Shown here piece by piece: positions 1,386 to 10,881 of a DNA stretch of 13,369 bases. The stretch comes from Candidatus Tectimicrobiota bacterium. Lineage in GTDB: Bacteria > UBA8248. The notes beneath the pieces were generated by a model. The model did no database searches. It saw only the letters and a list, made by a program, of their open reading frames with translations, and was not told where the DNA came from. Position 1 is the first letter of the stretch. Each line of letters starts with the position of its first letter. The translations under genes and the position numbers were made by a program. Location of the stretch: positions 1 through 13,369 of the forward strand of contig JACPCT010000276.1 of assembly GCA_016184445.1 (NCBI GenBank), given 5' to 3'.

Positions 1386-2147
1386 ATGATCGTCCGGCCC
1401 GTGCGGGAAGGGGTTCAGCTCATCCATCAGCACGACCACGCCCGCGCGGCGGGGACCCTGGCCCGCCGCTGGAAGGGGACTTCCTCCATCCCGGCGCCCT
1501 CTCCGCAGGTGCGGGACCCCCTCTTCTTCGCCGCGGACAATCACGACGTGGGCTGGTGCCTCCTCGACAGCTCTCCCCGGCTCGACCTGGGGACGGGGCT
1601 TCCCCAGAGTTTCTTCGCGGCGACGGTGGAGGAGGCGGTTTCGGTCTGGACGGAGGGCATCCGCTTCTGCGAGGCCCACGGCGCTTTCTCGGGCTATCTG
1701 GTGAGCGCCCACTTCAGCTCCCTGGCCGAGGCGGGGCTCCCGGGCGCCCCGCCGGAGGACCTGGCCTTGCTGCGCCGCTTCGCCGGGGACGAGCAGGAGG
1801 CGCTCATCAAGGGCTGCGGCGCGGAGGAGTGCGGCTTCCAGAGCGAGGCGGCGCGGCTTCTCCGGGTGTGTGATACGCTTTCCCTGATCGCGTGCCGCGC
1901 GCCCGAGATTTCGCCTCCTCCCGGGGCCGTCTTCTCGCTGGCGGGGGGGGGCCTGAAGGTCCGCCTCTCCGGGGAAGGGAAGGTGGAGCTCGCCCCCTGG
2001 CCATTCCAGTCCGACGGCGTGCTGCTTCTGTTCCCCGGGTTCACGATCCTCCAGGCCCGCTTCGAGACCCAGATGGACCTGGATGAGGCGCTTCGTCAGG
2101 CCGAGCCGGCCATGTTCGAGACCCGGCTGGTGCCGTTGTCCGGCTGA
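1386..2147 (+). CDS. DUF3891 family protein
   Basis: A 253-residue protein that I recognise as DUF3891 from its start (MIVRP), QHDHARAAG near residues 15-23 and DNHDVGW at 51-57. The biochemical function is unknown. The conserved polar residues are arranged H16-D17-H18, H53-D54, H109 and D163 (in a C-terminal CDTLSL helix). This resembles the H...HD...D metal-ligand order of HD-domain phosphohydrolases; the resemblance is my inference, not an established assignment. There is no signal peptide or membrane segment, so it should be cytoplasmic. The ATG was chosen because the family begins with this MIVR sequence and GAGG lies 8 nt upstream; the frame is open further upstream but without family-like sequence. 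The stop is 37 nt before the Nudix-HpnC-HpnD gene, suggesting co-transcription. A short CCGGGC/GCCCGG inverted repeat (2149-2167) lies in that gap. Confidence 0.85.
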   Translation: MIVRPVREGVQLIHQHDHARAAGTLARRWKGTSSIPAPSPQVRDPLFFAADNHDVGWCLLDSSPRLDLGTGLPQSFFAATVEEAVSVWTEGIRFCEAHGAFSGYLVSAHFSSLAEAGLPGAPPEDLALLRRFAGDEQEALIKGCGAEECGFQSEAARLLRVCDTLSLIACRAPEISPPPGAVFSLAGGGLKVRLSGEGKVELAPWPFQSDGVLLLFPGFTILQARFETQMDLDEALRQAEPAMFETRLVPLSG

Positions 2148-2184
2148 ACCGGGCGGAGAAGGCCCGGACCCCTTGGGAACTTCG

Positions 2185-4308
2185 ATGAAGACGGACCCGG
2201 ACGCGCTCGAAGTGGTCGCCGCGGTTGTCCGCCGCAGGGGGGAAATCCTCATCTGCCAGCGGCCGGACGGGGCGCACCTCGGCGGGCTCTGGGAGTTCCC
2301 CGGCGGTAAGATCGAGAGCGGCGAGTCCCCCGAGGAGGCGCTCGCGCGGGAGCTGCGCGAGGAGCTGGAGGTGGAGGTCGAGGTCGGCTCCCTGCGGTGG
2401 GAGACCCGCCACGCCTACCCGGACCGCCGCGTGCATCTGCGCTTCTACGACTGCGAGTGGAGGGCGGGCGAGGGCAGGGACAACGGCGTGGCCCGCCACG
2501 CGTGGGTCCACCCGAGCCGTCTCGGGCACTTCAGCTTCCTGCCGGCCGACGCCCCGCTCATCCGCGCGTTGAGCGGGGAGGCGCCCCCCGCCGCCCAGGG
2601 CCGGGCCGGGGCCTTCCGCTTCTGCCAGGAGTTGGCGGCCTCCCACTACGAGAATTTCCCCGTCGCCTCCTGGCTCCTTCCCGCGCGGATGCGCCCCCCC
2701 CTGGCGGCGGTCTACGCCTTCGCCCGCACCGCCGACGACGTGGCCGACGGCGGCGCGCCGCCCGCGGAGCGGCTGGCCCTCTTGGCCGAGATGGAGCGGG
2801 GGCTCGACGCCGCGGCGCAAGGCCGGGGGGAGGGGCCGGTCTTCGCAGCCTTGGCCGAGACCATCCGGGCGCATGGCGCGTCCATCCGGCACTTCCGCGA
2901 TCTCCTCTCCGCCTTCCGCCAGGATGTGGAGGTCTCCCGCTACCCGGACTTCGATTCCCTCCTCGGCTACTGCCGCCGCTCGGCCAACCCGGTCGGACGG
3001 ATCGTCCTCGAGATGTGGGGGATCGGGGACGAGGAGGCGCTCCGGGCCTCCGACGCCATCTGCACCGCGCTCCAGATCGCCAACCACTTGCAGGACGTGC
3101 GGGCGGACTACCTCCGGGGCGTGGTGTATCTCCCCCAGGAGGAGCTCGATGCCTTCGGCGTCGGGGAGGAGGAGCTGGGCGGGGAGACGGCGGGCCCGGC
3201 CCTGCGGGCGCTCATGATCTTCCAGGTGGGGCGCGTCCGCCGCCTGCTGGCCGAGGGCCTGCCTCTGCTGGGCATGGTGCGGGGCCCGCTGGCCCGGGAG
3301 CTCCGGGCGATCTGGCGCGGGGGGGCAGCCGCCCTGGAGTCCGTCGAGCGGGCTTCCTATGACGTCCTCCGGGGGGCGCCCCGGCTGGGGCTCCGGGACA
3401 AGGCGGCCTGCCTCGCGGCGGCCTTCCTGCCGGCGGGCCTGCTGGCGGGCCGGGCGGACCCCGCCCTCGATGCCCGGGCGGAGGAGGGCTACTGCCGGTG
3501 GGTGGTGAGGCGAAGCCGCTCGAACTTCTCCCTGGCCTTCCTCGCCCTCCCGCGCGGGCGCCGCCGCGCCCTCAACGCGATCTACGCCTTCTGCCGGATG
3601 GTGGACGACATCGCCGACACCCCGGGGGATCCCGCCGGGAAGCGCCGCCGCCTCGCCCGCTGGAAGGAGGCGATCGCCCGCTTCCACGAGGGCGGGCACC
3701 GGCACCCCATCCTCCGGGAGCTCGCCCGGGCGGACGCCGCCTTCGGGGTTCCCCTCCGCCACCTGCGCGAGGTGTGCGAGGGGGTGGAGATGGACGTCGA
3801 GGGCAAGCCCTTCGCGGAGTTCCCCGGCCTGATCGGCTATTGCGAGAAGGTGGCCTCGGCGGTGGGGCTGGCGTGCCTGGGCGTCTTCGGCGTGCGCACC
3901 GCCGCGGCGGAGCGCTACGCGCGCGCCCTGGGGGTCGCCCTTCAGCTCACCAACATCCTGCGCGACGTGTGGACCGACGCCCGGGCGGGGAGGGTCTACA
4001 TGCCCCGCGAGGACATGGAGCGCTTCGGGGTGGGCGAGGACGCCTTCCGCCGCGGGGAGTACAACGAGCGGGTCGTCGCCCTTCTCCGGTTCCAGGCGGA
4101 CCGCGCCCGCTCCTTCTACGAGGAGGCCGACGCCGCCCTTCCCGGGGACGGCAAGGAGAAGCTCTTTCCCGCCCGCCTCATGGGCCGCATCTACCGCCGC
4201 CTCCTCGAAGAGATGGACGGCGCCGGGTTCCCGCCGGGCGGCTGGCGCCCGCCGCTCTCGGCCTGGTCCAAGCTCCGGGAGGCCCTCCGCTGCTACCTGG
4301 AACGGTGA
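2185..4308 (+). CDS. hpnC-hpnD: Nudix hydrolase-HpnC-HpnD fusion protein (squalene synthesis)
   Basis: A single 707-residue reading frame with three domains. Residues 1-130 are a MutT-type Nudix domain: LGGLWEFPGGKIESGE at 32-47, and the Nudix box runs from G41 through E47, R55-E56 and E59-E60. Residues about 145-415 are HpnC, opening with RFCQELAASHYENFPVASW and carrying Asp-rich motifs DDVAD (184-188) and DVRAD (304-308). Residues about 436-707 are HpnD, with NFSLAF, DDIAD (474-478) and DVWTD (594-598). By established family knowledge HpnD makes presqualene diphosphate from two farnesyl diphosphates, and HpnC converts it to hydroxysqualene. All catalytic motifs look intact in each part, and no stop or frame change interrupts the joins. 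These are normally separate genes, and the Nudix moiety is unexpected. The start ATG is the first after the DUF3891 stop, with a modest GGGA ribosome-binding site. The stop overlaps the next gene by 4 nt. Confidence 0.93.
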   Translation: MKTDPDALEVVAAVVRRRGEILICQRPDGAHLGGLWEFPGGKIESGESPEEALARELREELEVEVEVGSLRWETRHAYPDRRVHLRFYDCEWRAGEGRDNGVARHAWVHPSRLGHFSFLPADAPLIRALSGEAPPAAQGRAGAFRFCQELAASHYENFPVASWLLPARMRPPLAAVYAFARTADDVADGGAPPAERLALLAEMERGLDAAAQGRGEGPVFAALAETIRAHGASIRHFRDLLSAFRQDVEVSRYPDFDSLLGYCRRSANPVGRIVLEMWGIGDEEALRASDAICTALQIANHLQDVRADYLRGVVYLPQEELDAFGVGEEELGGETAGPALRALMIFQVGRVRRLLAEGLPLLGMVRGPLARELRAIWRGGAAALESVERASYDVLRGAPRLGLRDKAACLAAAFLPAGLLAGRADPALDARAEEGYCRWVVRRSRSNFSLAFLALPRGRRRALNAIYAFCRMVDDIADTPGDPAGKRRRLARWKEAIARFHEGGHRHPILRELARADAAFGVPLRHLREVCEGVEMDVEGKPFAEFPGLIGYCEKVASAVGLACLGVFGVRTAAAERYARALGVALQLTNILRDVWTDARAGRVYMPREDMERFGVGEDAFRRGEYNERVVALLRFQADRARSFYEEADAALPGDGKEKLFPARLMGRIYRRLLEEMDGAGFPPGGWRPPLSAWSKLREALRCYLER

Positions 4309-7707: not shown

Positions 7708-8550
7708 ATGCCGTTGACCGACGCCCAGCTGGAGGCCTTCTGCCTTCTCCTGAGGGAGGAGCGGCCCTCCATCACGGCCGCGCTGGACCGCCAGGTCGCC
7801 GGGTTCTCCGAGGAGGACCGGGACCGCCTCCTCGTGCAGCTCCGGGGGGAGGGGCGCGGGCCGGTGGTCATCCCGCCCGCCCTGGAGGAGCACCACCACC
7901 GCGCCATCGAGCGCGCCTTCTCGGACTGGGCGGTGTCCCCGCCCGGGGAGATGGACCTGGAGCGGGGCGCCTTCCTCCTGGCCTCCCACGCCCATCCGCT
8001 GGAGGACATGGGGCGGTGGGAGGCCGAGCTGGACAGGATGGCGGAGGCCCTGGGGGTCCGCCTCGGGGAGGCCGCCTCGCCCGGGGAGATCGTGGAGGGG
8101 ACCGCGGAATACCTGCACGGGGAGCTGCGCTTCGACGGCGACCGGGAGAACTACTACGATCCCCAGAACAGCTACCTCAACCGGGTGCTCGACCGGAGGC
8201 GGGGGACCCCCATCTCCCTCTCGGCCGTCTACCTGCTGCTCGGGCGGCGGCTGGGCCTCCCCTTCCGGGGGGTGGGCATGCCGGGCCATTTCATTGTGAA
8301 GTACGAGGCGCCCGGGGGCCCGATCTTCCTCGACCCCTTCGACGGGGGGCGCCGGCTCAGCGTGCGCGAGTGCGACGCCATCGTGCGCGGGCTGGGCTAC
8401 CACTTCGACCTCCGCTTCCTCCAGGAGACCCCGCCGCGGCGGATCGTGGAGCGGATGCTGAACAACCTCATCGGCATCTTCCAGCGGGACGGCGGAGAGG
8501 AGAGGATCAAGCGGCTCATGCGCTACCGCGAGATCGTGCAGCGTGGCTAA
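7708..8550 (+). CDS. SirB1-like transglutaminase-fold protein (Transglut_core2)
   Basis: A 280-residue cytoplasmic protein of the SirB1/YchA family (Transglut_core2). The hallmark block is NYYDPQNSYLNRVLDRRRG (148-166), then TPISLSAVYLLLGRRLGLP and PGHFIVKY (192-199) with the family His194, then FLDPFDGG (207-214). The C-terminal part, LNNLIGIFQRDGGEERIK, resembles the helical tail of family members. No Cys lies where a classical transglutaminase nucleophile would be, which is usual for this family, whose function is poorly defined. The ATG has a GGGAAGGG ribosome-binding site about 8 nt upstream. The stop is 45 bp before the UGA-containing phosphatase gene on the same strand, so the two are probably co-transcribed. 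Confidence 0.88.
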   Translation: MPLTDAQLEAFCLLLREERPSITAALDRQVAGFSEEDRDRLLVQLRGEGRGPVVIPPALEEHHHRAIERAFSDWAVSPPGEMDLERGAFLLASHAHPLEDMGRWEAELDRMAEALGVRLGEAASPGEIVEGTAEYLHGELRFDGDRENYYDPQNSYLNRVLDRRRGTPISLSAVYLLLGRRLGLPFRGVGMPGHFIVKYEAPGGPIFLDPFDGGRRLSVRECDAIVRGLGYHFDLRFLQETPPRRIVERMLNNLIGIFQRDGGEERIKRLMRYREIVQRG

Positions 8551-8595: not shown

Positions 8596-9051
8596 ATGGA
8601 ATACCGTGAACTTTCAGAGAAGCTGACCTTCGGGGGCCAGCCCACGGTCGAGGAGCTTCGGGAGCTGGCCCGGAAGGGGGTGAAGACCGTCGTCAACGTC
8701 CGGTCCCCGGACGAGGAGGAGGTTCACCTCTCGACCACCCAGGAGAAGGCCCTGGCCGAGTCGCTCGGGATGACCTACGTCAACATCCCCCTCACGGCCA
8801 AGACCATCGCCGAGGACACCGCCGCCCAGGTGAAGCGGGCCATCGCCGACGCCAAGAACACGGGCCCGGTCTTCGTCCACTGAAGGGTCCTCGGGCGGGC
8901 CGGGGTCTGCTCGCTGATGCACGAGGCGGAGGAGAAGGGCTGGAGCGGGGAGGAGACGATCCAGGCGGCCCAGAAGCTCAACTTCGACTGGACCACCAAC
9001 CCGCTCACGAAGTTCTTCGAGGGCTTCCTCGCGGGGCGGAAGAAGAAGTAG
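8596..9051 (+). CDS. DSP/PTP-like phosphatase with in-frame UGA at the catalytic Cys (candidate selenoprotein)
   Basis: Read through one TGA (8881-8883), the frame encodes 151 residues, the expected length of the small DSP/PTP-like phosphatase domain also seen fused to NAD kinase or in beta-lactamase-hydrolase-like proteins. The N-terminus has LTFGGQPTVEELRELARKGV (10-29), VVNVRSPDE and a TYVNIPLTA strand. The UGA is codon 96, in PVFVH-UGA-RVLGRAGV. This family typically has VHCxxxxR[VA]G, so UGA replaces the nucleophilic Cys, and Arg101 and Gly103 keep their positions. The following 55 codons retain G/C third positions and a helical, family-like end before TAG. AGGAGA precedes the ATG. Selenocysteine insertion is my preferred reading; a TGC-to-TGA mutation or sequencing error is the alternative. 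No sel genes are in the window. Substrate unknown. If termination does occur at UGA, the product is a 95-residue protein without an active site. Confidence 0.62.
8906..8930 (+). promoter_or_regulatory. Candidate bacterial SECIS-like hairpin
   Basis: Downstream of the UGA, TCTG-CTCG can pair with CGAG-(G)-CGGA, giving eight pairs including one G-U, with a single bulged G and an 8-nt loop CTGATGCA. The loop begins 30 nt after the UGA, within the 16-37 nt range used for bacterial SECIS models. A G occurs at the third rather than the first or second loop position, so the match is partial. Two shorter alternative hairpins (stems at 8889-8905 and 8892-8913) place the loop closer, about 10-13 nt from the UGA. 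Confidence 0.38.
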
Positions 9052-9112: not shown

Positions 9113-10804
9113 TTATTCGTCCGTGACGCAGCCCTCCGAGGCCGAGGAGACGAGCTTGGCGTACTTGTAGAGGGTGCCCTTCTTGAACTTCAGGGCGGGC
9201 GCTTTCCATTTCTTCCTGCGCGCCTTGATTTCGGAGGCGGGGACGTCCAGCGTCAGGGCGCGCTTGGCGGCGTCGATGACGATCCGGTCCCCGTTCCGGA
9301 CCAGGGCGAGGAGGCCGCCGGTCTGGGCCTCGGGGGTGACGTGTCCCACCACCAGGCCGTGGGTGCCGCCCGAGAAGCGCCCGTCGGTGATGAGGGCCAG
9401 GTCCTTGCCCAGGCCCGCCCCCATGATGGCCGAGGTGACGGTGAGCATCTCGCGCATGCCGGGGCCGCCCTTGGGCCCCTCGTAGCGGATGACGACCACG
9501 TCGCCCTTCTTGATCTTCTTCTGCTCGAGGCCCTTGAGGGCGTCCTCCTCGGAGTTGAAGACGCGCGCCGGGCCCTCGAAGCGCTCCCCCTCCTTGCCGG
9601 TGATCTTGGCGACGGCGCCCCCGGTGGCGAGGTTGCCGTAGAGGATCTGGAGGTGGCCCGTCTTCTTGAGGGGCCGCGAGAGCGGGAAGATGACCTTCTG
9701 TCCCCCCTTGAGGTCCGGCACGGATTCGAGGTTCTCCGCCATGGTCTTGCCCGTGACGGTCAGGCAGTCTCCGTGGATGAGCCCCTCCTTGAGCAGCAGC
9801 TTCAGGACGCCGGGCACCCCGCCCGCGTTGTGGAGGTCCTCCATCACGTACTGGCCGCTGGGCTTGAGGTCGGCGAGGTAGGGGGTGCGGTTGCTGATGC
9901 GCTGGAAGTCGTCCAGGGCGAGGCGCACCCCCACCGACTTGGCGATGGCGATGTAGTGCATGACGGCGTTGGTCGAGCCGCCCAGGGCCATGACGACGGT
10001 GATGGCGTTCTCGAAGGCCTTCTTCGTCATGATGTCGCGCGGGCGGATGCCGTTCTCCAGGAGGTGCCAGATGGCCTTGCCCGCGCTCTGGCACTCGGCC
10101 TGCTTCTCCTGGCTGGTGGCGGGGTTGGAGGAGCTGTAGGGCAGGCTCATCCCCAGGGCCTCGATGGAGGAGGACATGGTGTTGGCCGTGTACATGCCCC
10201 CGCAGGCGCCCGCCCCGGGGCAGGCGTGCTGGATGACGTCCCTCAGCTCCCTCTCGCCGAGCTGGCCGGCGATGTACTCCCCGTAGGCCTGGAAGGCGGA
10301 GACCACGTCCAGCTTCTTCCCGTTCAGGAAGCCGGGGCTGATGGTGCCGCCGTAGACCATGAGGCTGGGGCGGTTGAGGCGGCCCATGGCGATGATGGAG
10401 CCGGGCATGTTCTTGTCGCAGCCGGGGACGGCGACCAGGGCGTCGTACCACTGGGCGCCCGCCACGGTCTCAATGGAGTCGGCGATGATGTCCCTCGACT
10501 GGAGGGAGTACTTCATCCCCTCGGTGCCCATCGAGATGCCGTCGCTCACCCCGATGGTGTTGAAAATGAGGCCCACCATCCTCTTCCCGTCGTTCACGCT
10601 CTCCTTGATGAGCCGGGCCAGGTCGTTCAGGTGCATGTTGCAGGTGTTGCCCTCCCACCACATGCTGACGATGCCGACCTGGGGGCAGCGCATTCCGTGC
10701 TCGTCCACGCCCGCTCCGTGGAGCATGGCCTGGGAGGCCGCCTGGGAGAGGGGTTCGGTCACCCGGCTGCTGTACTGGTTGAGTCGTACCGCGCGCTCCG
10801 CCAT
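9113..10804 (-). CDS. ilvD: Dihydroxy-acid dehydratase IlvD
   Basis: A 563-residue iron-sulfur dehydratase that converts 2,3-dihydroxyisovalerate and 2,3-dihydroxy-3-methylvalerate to the 2-oxo acids in valine, isoleucine and leucine synthesis. Cluster-ligand cysteines appear as C55 (EGNTCNMH), C129 ([10 protein letters not shown]) and C201 ([16 protein letters not shown]), matching the three-Cys pattern of the family. [15 protein letters not shown] (substrate and metal region) and [11 protein letters not shown], with the catalytic Ser, are intact. The ATG was chosen because GGAGG lies 7 nt upstream; a TTG five codons earlier overlaps that ribosome-binding site. Length and motifs are normal. 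It lies 77 bp behind the TSP3 lipoprotein gene on the same strand with no clear promoter in the gap, so the two may share a transcript. An intrinsic terminator follows directly. Confidence 0.96.
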
Positions 10805-10881
10805 CTTGCCCGCCTCCAAGAAAGGTCAGTCTGATCGGAACCAGACGCTTCGGTCGGGGTGAAGCCGGCTGCCGCGGGCCA

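Follow-up and report, generated by a model that had tools for sequence, protein, structure and literature searches.

The open frame at positions 8596..9051 of the window (the whole stretch of 13,369 nucleotides that was analysed), on the + strand and including its TAG stop, very probably encodes a selenoprotein with selenocysteine (Sec) at codon 96 of a PTP-fold protein of the TIGR01244/DUF442 kind. We put the probability of this reading, which is drawn from sequence comparison, at roughly 0.88. The preliminary description of this DNA had proposed that the UGA stands for Sec at the nucleophile, and the proposal is now supported by the UGA in 22/22 loci, a SECIS-like hairpin, Sec genes in the family, a Cys ortholog and a second lineage (clade B) with the same replacement. 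The frame reads ATG...VFVH-TGA-RVLGRAGVCSLMH...RKKK-TAG and holds a single in-frame TGA. Its layout is exactly as first described: 95 codons, the TGA at 8881..8883 (+ strand, codon 96), 55 further codons and the TAG. The predicted product has 151 residues, with U96 at the nucleophile position of an HUxxxGR motif (a UX4R loop), and codon 96 aligns with the catalytic Cys of the Cys homologs and of NMA1982. Because TGA terminates six of the nine window ORFs checked as an ordinary stop, UGA is not simply reassigned, and genome-wide reassignment was rejected. Compensating frameshifts near codon 96 were considered because the loop Gly is displaced; they were rejected since frame and length are common to all 22 loci. 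Gene callers appear to read the UGA as a stop and thus to lose the active site. This loss had been foreseen in the preliminary description, and public databases hold the family largely as stubs of 85-97 residues.

The UGA is conserved across the relatives of the window's genome. A survey of 61 genomes, including the 18 of the window's family, gave matches in 18. Sixteen of these, all from the window's family, carry the UGA form, which amounts to 22 loci (two loci in six genomes). In this group, clade A, all 22 loci have an ATG start, TGA as codon 96 and a product of 148-154 codons, the normal length noted at the outset. An additional TAA in the G012 match lies past the stop of the gene itself. 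One family genome (G005) gave no match to the Sec gene, and another (G003), together with G042, holds distant homologs only, without the stop. The loci are 40% to 87% identical to the window protein, and the invariant columns include U96, R101, A102, G103, C105, S106 and L107. In a protein collection, whose listing covered the best 120 of 302 matches, 119 proteins were examined (P0001-P0006 and P0031-P0143). Among them 88 have lengths of 85-100 aa, and all but one of these (87/88) terminate in VH, IH, VY or IY, the residues expected just before the UGA. The sole exception, P0122, resembles a C-terminal piece. Nitrospinae names are found on other short protein matches among the matches listed. 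P0120, with 100 aa, has the beginning of a short-chain dehydrogenase (PF00106) fused to the N-terminal part of the Sec family and probably comes from a chimeric contig. A full-length Cys ortholog, P0031 (162 aa, 51% identity over its whole length), has Cys at the nucleophile position: VHCKAIGRAGVCSF. It groups inside the Sec clade in the tree (support 100/100 for 23 rows, its inner placement being less sure), and its Cys form may therefore be a reversion. UGA/Cys pairs at codon 96, which the preliminary description had suggested looking for, are thus represented by P0031 in clade A and are abundant in clade B.

Decay of the sequence after the UGA would have spoken against Sec; instead, that sequence is conserved across the 22 loci. 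We compared substitution rates in 11 chosen pairs of the 231 possible. In 10 of the 11, dN was lower than dS both before and after the TGA. The remaining pair, G000 and G002, is the most closely related one and has zero synonymous change and a dN of 0.024 after the UGA. Pairs within the genus gave high downstream dN/dS ratios of 0.62 and 0.66, which is in part an effect of the suppressed synonymous change in that region. The synonymous difference rate was 0.47 upstream of the UGA and 0.35 over the whole downstream part, and it fell to 0.02 (1036 comparisons) at codons +6 to +10, the lowest five-codon stretch of the gene. Codons +4, +6, +7, +9 and +10 showed zero synonymous change, and the GCC, GGG, TGC and TCG codons after the UGA are each found in 22/22 loci.

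The codons of low synonymous change lie in a SECIS-like hairpin at 8894..8915 (+ strand). The RNAalifold consensus of the 22 sequences has a 7-bp stem and an 8-nt loop that starts 17 nt after the UGA; the loop is CGGGRUYU in most loci and CGGGGUCU in the window. An alternative with the same start, a 9-bp stem and a 4-nt loop, has a lower energy in the window (-12.3 vs. -9.7 kcal/mol for the consensus form) and is the best-scoring form in G000, G001 and G002. The bSECIS criteria, as worded in the legend of Fig. 2 of PMC13188914, are a loop of 3-9 nt, a stem of 4-16 bp, G in the first two loop positions, a spacing of 16-37 nt and an energy of -7.5 or lower. Hairpins of this description follow the UGA in 22/22 clade A loci, the window included, compared to 288/2816 other codons of the same genes. 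Since the clade A hairpin is nearly invariant, covariation cannot be judged there. The 51 nt of the window folded alone were no better than shuffles (z 0.43), and a gathering-threshold Rfam search and ARAGORN found nothing on the window.

We also searched for the Sec machinery. Among the 18 family genomes, curated cut-offs were exceeded by selB in 14, tRNA-Sec in 16, selA in 14 and selD in 14. The tRNA-Sec scores of these 16 genomes are 72.6-76.2 bits against a cut-off of 47, which taken alone is lenient and was exceeded by 5/14 control genomes. In G001, of the same genus as the window's genome and 96% complete, selA, selB and tRNA-Sec were over the cut-off and selD was not; in G002, also of this genus, selA, tRNA-Sec and selD were over the cut-off and selB was not. 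The preliminary description had suggested checking whether the genome itself carries the sel genes: the window's own MAG (67% complete, 463 contigs) has a Sec-type selD over the cut-off, and selA, selB and tRNA-Sec were not found over the cut-off in it but exceed it in relatives. In all 14 family genomes with a match, the window's own among them, SelD is itself encoded by a UGA gene (GGUGSK). The SelD genes of these 14 genomes share an invariant GGUCCGGAGGACC hairpin with its loop start 17 nt after the UGA, near the clade A hairpin in spacing and in its CCGG core.

A wider survey of 386 genomes (E 1e-6; 39 genomes matched) gave one UGA case outside the window's family, G280, whose tRNA-Sec scored 70.1 bits. 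In the family of G280 (99 genomes), 17 genomes gave 18 matching loci, of which 12 are intact with TGA exactly at the nucleophile, five have Cys there and one is degraded. The last (L181, G478:C164:9462-9749) is a second copy that keeps the UGA at the nucleophile position, has an internal TAG and loses the frame after the UGA; it resembles a decayed Sec gene, a pseudogene. A search of 149 genomes of the same phylum added four more TGA loci from a neighbouring family and three more distant homologs, which are Cys forms. Clade B thus comprises 16 Sec loci and five close Cys loci. By database names it is Eremiobacterota-like, with Candidatus Eremiobacteraeota, Vulcanimicrobiaceae, Candidatus Velthaea and Candidatus Elarobacter on close matches, and a Candidatus Acidoferrales name also among the matches listed. 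The best 120 of 319 clade B protein matches consist of 87 proteins of at least 120 aa, two of middle length and 31 stubs of 85-90 aa. All 31 stubs listed end in IH, TH, LH or VH, and by pattern the 87 long proteins listed have Cys in 79, no fit in seven and a match elsewhere in one. Among the matches listed, identity of the clade B Cys relatives to the Sec protein of G280 goes up to 65% (P0165).

Clade B has its own hairpin, unlike that of clade A, with 6 bp around GGUC and the loop 20 nt after the UGA. Covariation was tested with 12 sequences, the four later Sec loci being left out, against 500 shuffles. The stem is paired in 97.2% of cells, and four of its six pairs changed on both sides. 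The covariation score was 0.482 compared to 0.237 in shuffles, and slid versions gave at most 0.086. None of the 500 shuffles reached the values for paired cells, cells changed on both sides or covariation score, though related sequences can exceed shuffles without structure. Two weaker measures of the five were reached more often, pairs changed by 6/500 shuffles and pair types by 417/500. The GGUC loop is present in 16/16 Sec loci and 0/5 Cys loci; one Cys form (G447) keeps the stem. The bSECIS criteria describe 10 of the 12 Sec loci tested (of 16), 2/5 Cys loci and 322/1991 background codons; the other two Sec loci fall outside the published stem or energy limits. Among the 12 Sec carriers, selB was over the cut-off in 10 and tRNA-Sec in nine, with at least one of the two in each; the five Cys carriers had selB in four and tRNA-Sec in two, and selB was over the cut-off in 77/99 genomes of G280's family. 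Since these genes are common to Sec and Cys carriers, the machinery does not separate the two forms in clade B; the GGUC loop does.

We placed the two lineages in a midpoint-rooted tree of 43 rows (13 of the 22 clade A proteins, 17 clade B proteins and 13 Cys proteins). Clade B stands apart at 100/100, clade A and P0031 group at 100/98, and Cys homologs lie between; inside clade B, Sec and Cys rows interleave. The simplest reading of this topology is that Sec was gained twice, once in clade A and once in clade B.

The read-through window protein matches Pfam models across the UGA: PF22741 (PTP-NADK) with 41.5 bits over residues 9-103 (cut-off 27), PF04273 (BLH_phosphatase/DUF442) with 41.4 bits over residues 3-103 (cut-off 26.1) and PF22785 with 32.2 bits over residues 15-105. 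All 22 clade A proteins match the TIGR01244 and Blh models, and TIGR01244/DUF442 is the closest named family for 22/22 clade A and 17/17 clade B proteins scanned. The window protein scores 59.1 bits against the curated TIGR01244 cut-off of 85.85 and 71.9 bits against the Blh cut-off of 625. By these scores it would be a relative of TIGR01244 and is not filed as a member. With TIGR01244/DUF442 (PF04273; Blh of Xylella and Agrobacterium) it shares the PTP fold, the position of the catalytic Cys, the X4R loop and the small domain. It differs in having Sec instead of Cys (5/17 clade B proteins scanned are Cys forms) and in its stand-alone form, without the ETHE1 dioxygenase fusion of Blh; the loop Gly of clade A lies at +4 and not at +3. 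The best PDB match both by sequence (E 2.6e-09) and by Foldseek E-value (2.7e-08) is NMA1982 (PDB 2f46), a C(X)4R protein tyrosine phosphatase, which shares loop length, Arg and the upstream R/E but has Cys instead of Sec, 25-28% identity and a D71 that is replaced in 33 of the 34 clade A and B Sec rows. The rhodanese-like selenoproteins (PF00581 and related, forms 1-5, PMC13188914 Table 1) are a functional parallel, with Sec predicted in sulfur-transferase-like proteins; they are a different family, since the Pfam matches of the window protein at E 0.001 include PTP-fold models but not PF00581. No rhodanese was among the 50 VIA-align rows listed, which by itself does not exclude similarity.

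The gene has a conserved place in the genome. Its upstream neighbour at 7708..8550 (+ strand) encodes a transglutaminase-like protein (PF13369), and its downstream neighbour at 9113..10819 (- strand) encodes IlvD, dihydroxy-acid dehydratase, convergent here and co-directional in six relatives. We compared 21 loci with flanks, 15 of type a and six of type b (second copies), leaving out the G017 locus. The ilvD gene is adjacent in 14/15 type-a loci; six of these have it co-directional at 42-159 bp downstream, and the other eight have it on the opposite strand. By script, nine loci have the transglutaminase-like gene no more than 64 bp upstream, and the window has it as well. HpnC/HpnD, HpnE and a TPP enzyme are found at a greater distance, and the type b loci have other neighbours, mostly without a Pfam match. 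This conserved place beside ilvD and the transglutaminase-like gene suggests a stable housekeeping role. A 741-residue ORF at 2083..4308 (+ strand) of the window combines a NUDIX domain with two squalene-synthase domains (HpnC, HpnD); since this architecture recurs in G008 (L149), a local artefact can be discounted. Among the annotated neighbours of the copies, a TorD-like chaperone and a molybdopterin oxidoreductase adjoin only the divergent paralog G002b (L151, G002:C212).

How would the protein be made and what would it do? The hairpin just past the UGA would direct SelB and Sec-tRNA-Sec to place Sec at codon 96, and the product would be a 151-residue PTP-fold protein with a selenolate nucleophile in the UX4R loop. 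The DUF442 domain of Blh has been demonstrated to transfer sulfane sulfur, according to the available text of PMC5823870. By analogy, a persulfide, polysulfide or thiosulfate might donate sulfane sulfur to the selenolate, an Se-S intermediate would form, and the sulfur would then be passed to a thiol acceptor. We regard this chemistry as the likeliest and give it about an even chance.

With Sec inserted, the protein could also be a redox enzyme, reducing peroxide, sulfenate or disulfide or repairing Fe-S enzymes, for example IlvD; C105 or an external thiol would then resolve U96. IlvD is an Fe-S dehydratase, and its adjacency in the type-a loci fits this role, as does the molybdopterin oxidoreductase beside paralog G002b. 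C105 (TGC at 8908..8910, + strand) is invariant in 22/22 loci and kept in P0031. Its codon lies within the hairpin, however, so that TGC may be held by the RNA; the residue sits midway along the helix that follows the active-site loop (H99-114), not obviously within reach of U96, and clade B has no Cys at its place. Most uncharacterised selenoproteins are thought to be redox-functional (PMC13188914), and we nevertheless consider a redox role unlikely, if well worth keeping in mind.

A selenol-based phosphatase, in which the selenolate would play the part that Cys has in NMA1982, attacking a phosphoester and forming a seleno-phosphate intermediate, is improbable. The preliminary description had called the protein a DSP/PTP-like phosphatase. 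The fold stands and spans the whole domain, with conservation of the nucleophile position, the loop Arg and the R36/E40 pair upstream; NMA1982, with its CX4R loop, is a demonstrated phosphatase according to the available text of PMC10716126. The phosphatase part does not stand so well. The loop is U(X)4R, and not C(X)5R, in the 34 aligned Sec rows (22 clade A, 12 clade B). At the position of the general-acid Asp (D71 of NMA1982), D occurs in 1/22 clade A and 0/12 clade B Sec rows, and the window protein has T. Eighteen of the 22 clade A rows have lost the P-loop Gly at +3, although clade B keeps it in 12/12, and the named family models nearest to the protein are those of sulfur transferases.

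That the UGA is a true stop, with a functional 95-residue product and a relic or overlapping feature behind it, is very hard to credit. It would agree with the many 95-residue products in databases and with the search of the window's own MAG (67% complete), in which neither selB nor tRNA-Sec was found. However, conservation and domain homology continue through the UGA, the Cys orthologs are full length, and two lineages, both with SECIS-like hairpins, have UGA at this codon; moreover, a 95-residue form would be without the catalytic residue and the Arg. A sequencing error or a recent, private nonsense mutation of a Cys codon, for which TGC to TGA needs one substitution, is the least credible reading of all and was rejected, the TGA being present in 22/22 loci of 16 genomes and implied by 87 short database proteins ending alike.

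As far as our searches of the open-licence PMC literature show, this would be the first PTP-fold active site with Sec. We regard the protein as the Sec version of a fold family that is already known; the groundwater deep-Sep study (PMC13188914 ref. 66), which might contain this family, is outside the scope of the searches. PTP, DSP, DUF442 and TIGR01244 have no entry among the 119 prokaryotic selenoprotein families and subfamilies of the 2026 inventory (PMC13188914 Table 1). The word "phosphatase" is absent from the available portions of the main text of the deep-Sep paper and of a 2022 review, and in the available portion of the GOS paper the sole phosphatase is a PP2C-type domain fused to a Sec peroxiredoxin. 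Searches of the open-licence PMC full texts found no paper that pairs a selenoprotein with Tectomicrobia or Eremiobacterota. Among NCBIfam models named "seleno", clade A gave only a weak HesB_rel_seleno match (E 0.064, 1/22 members), and the 17 clade B proteins scanned matched none. The full proposal, that Sec arose at least twice as the PTP-fold nucleophile, in two unrelated bacterial lineages and with different SECIS elements, for the transfer of sulfane sulfur (perhaps selenium) and not for thiol redox, as the Sec equivalent of the DUF442 sulfur transferases, and that this is the first such site, we put forward tentatively, at a little short of even odds.

The finding places Sec in the PTP fold, where the reactivity of a single Cys nucleophile is the textbook case, and in a family that public databases hold mostly without its active site. 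The covarying hairpin of clade B, with a loop that is altered in the Cys relatives, is a good test case for SECIS function, and the natural Sec/Cys pairs allow one to ask what selenium adds in the PTP fold.
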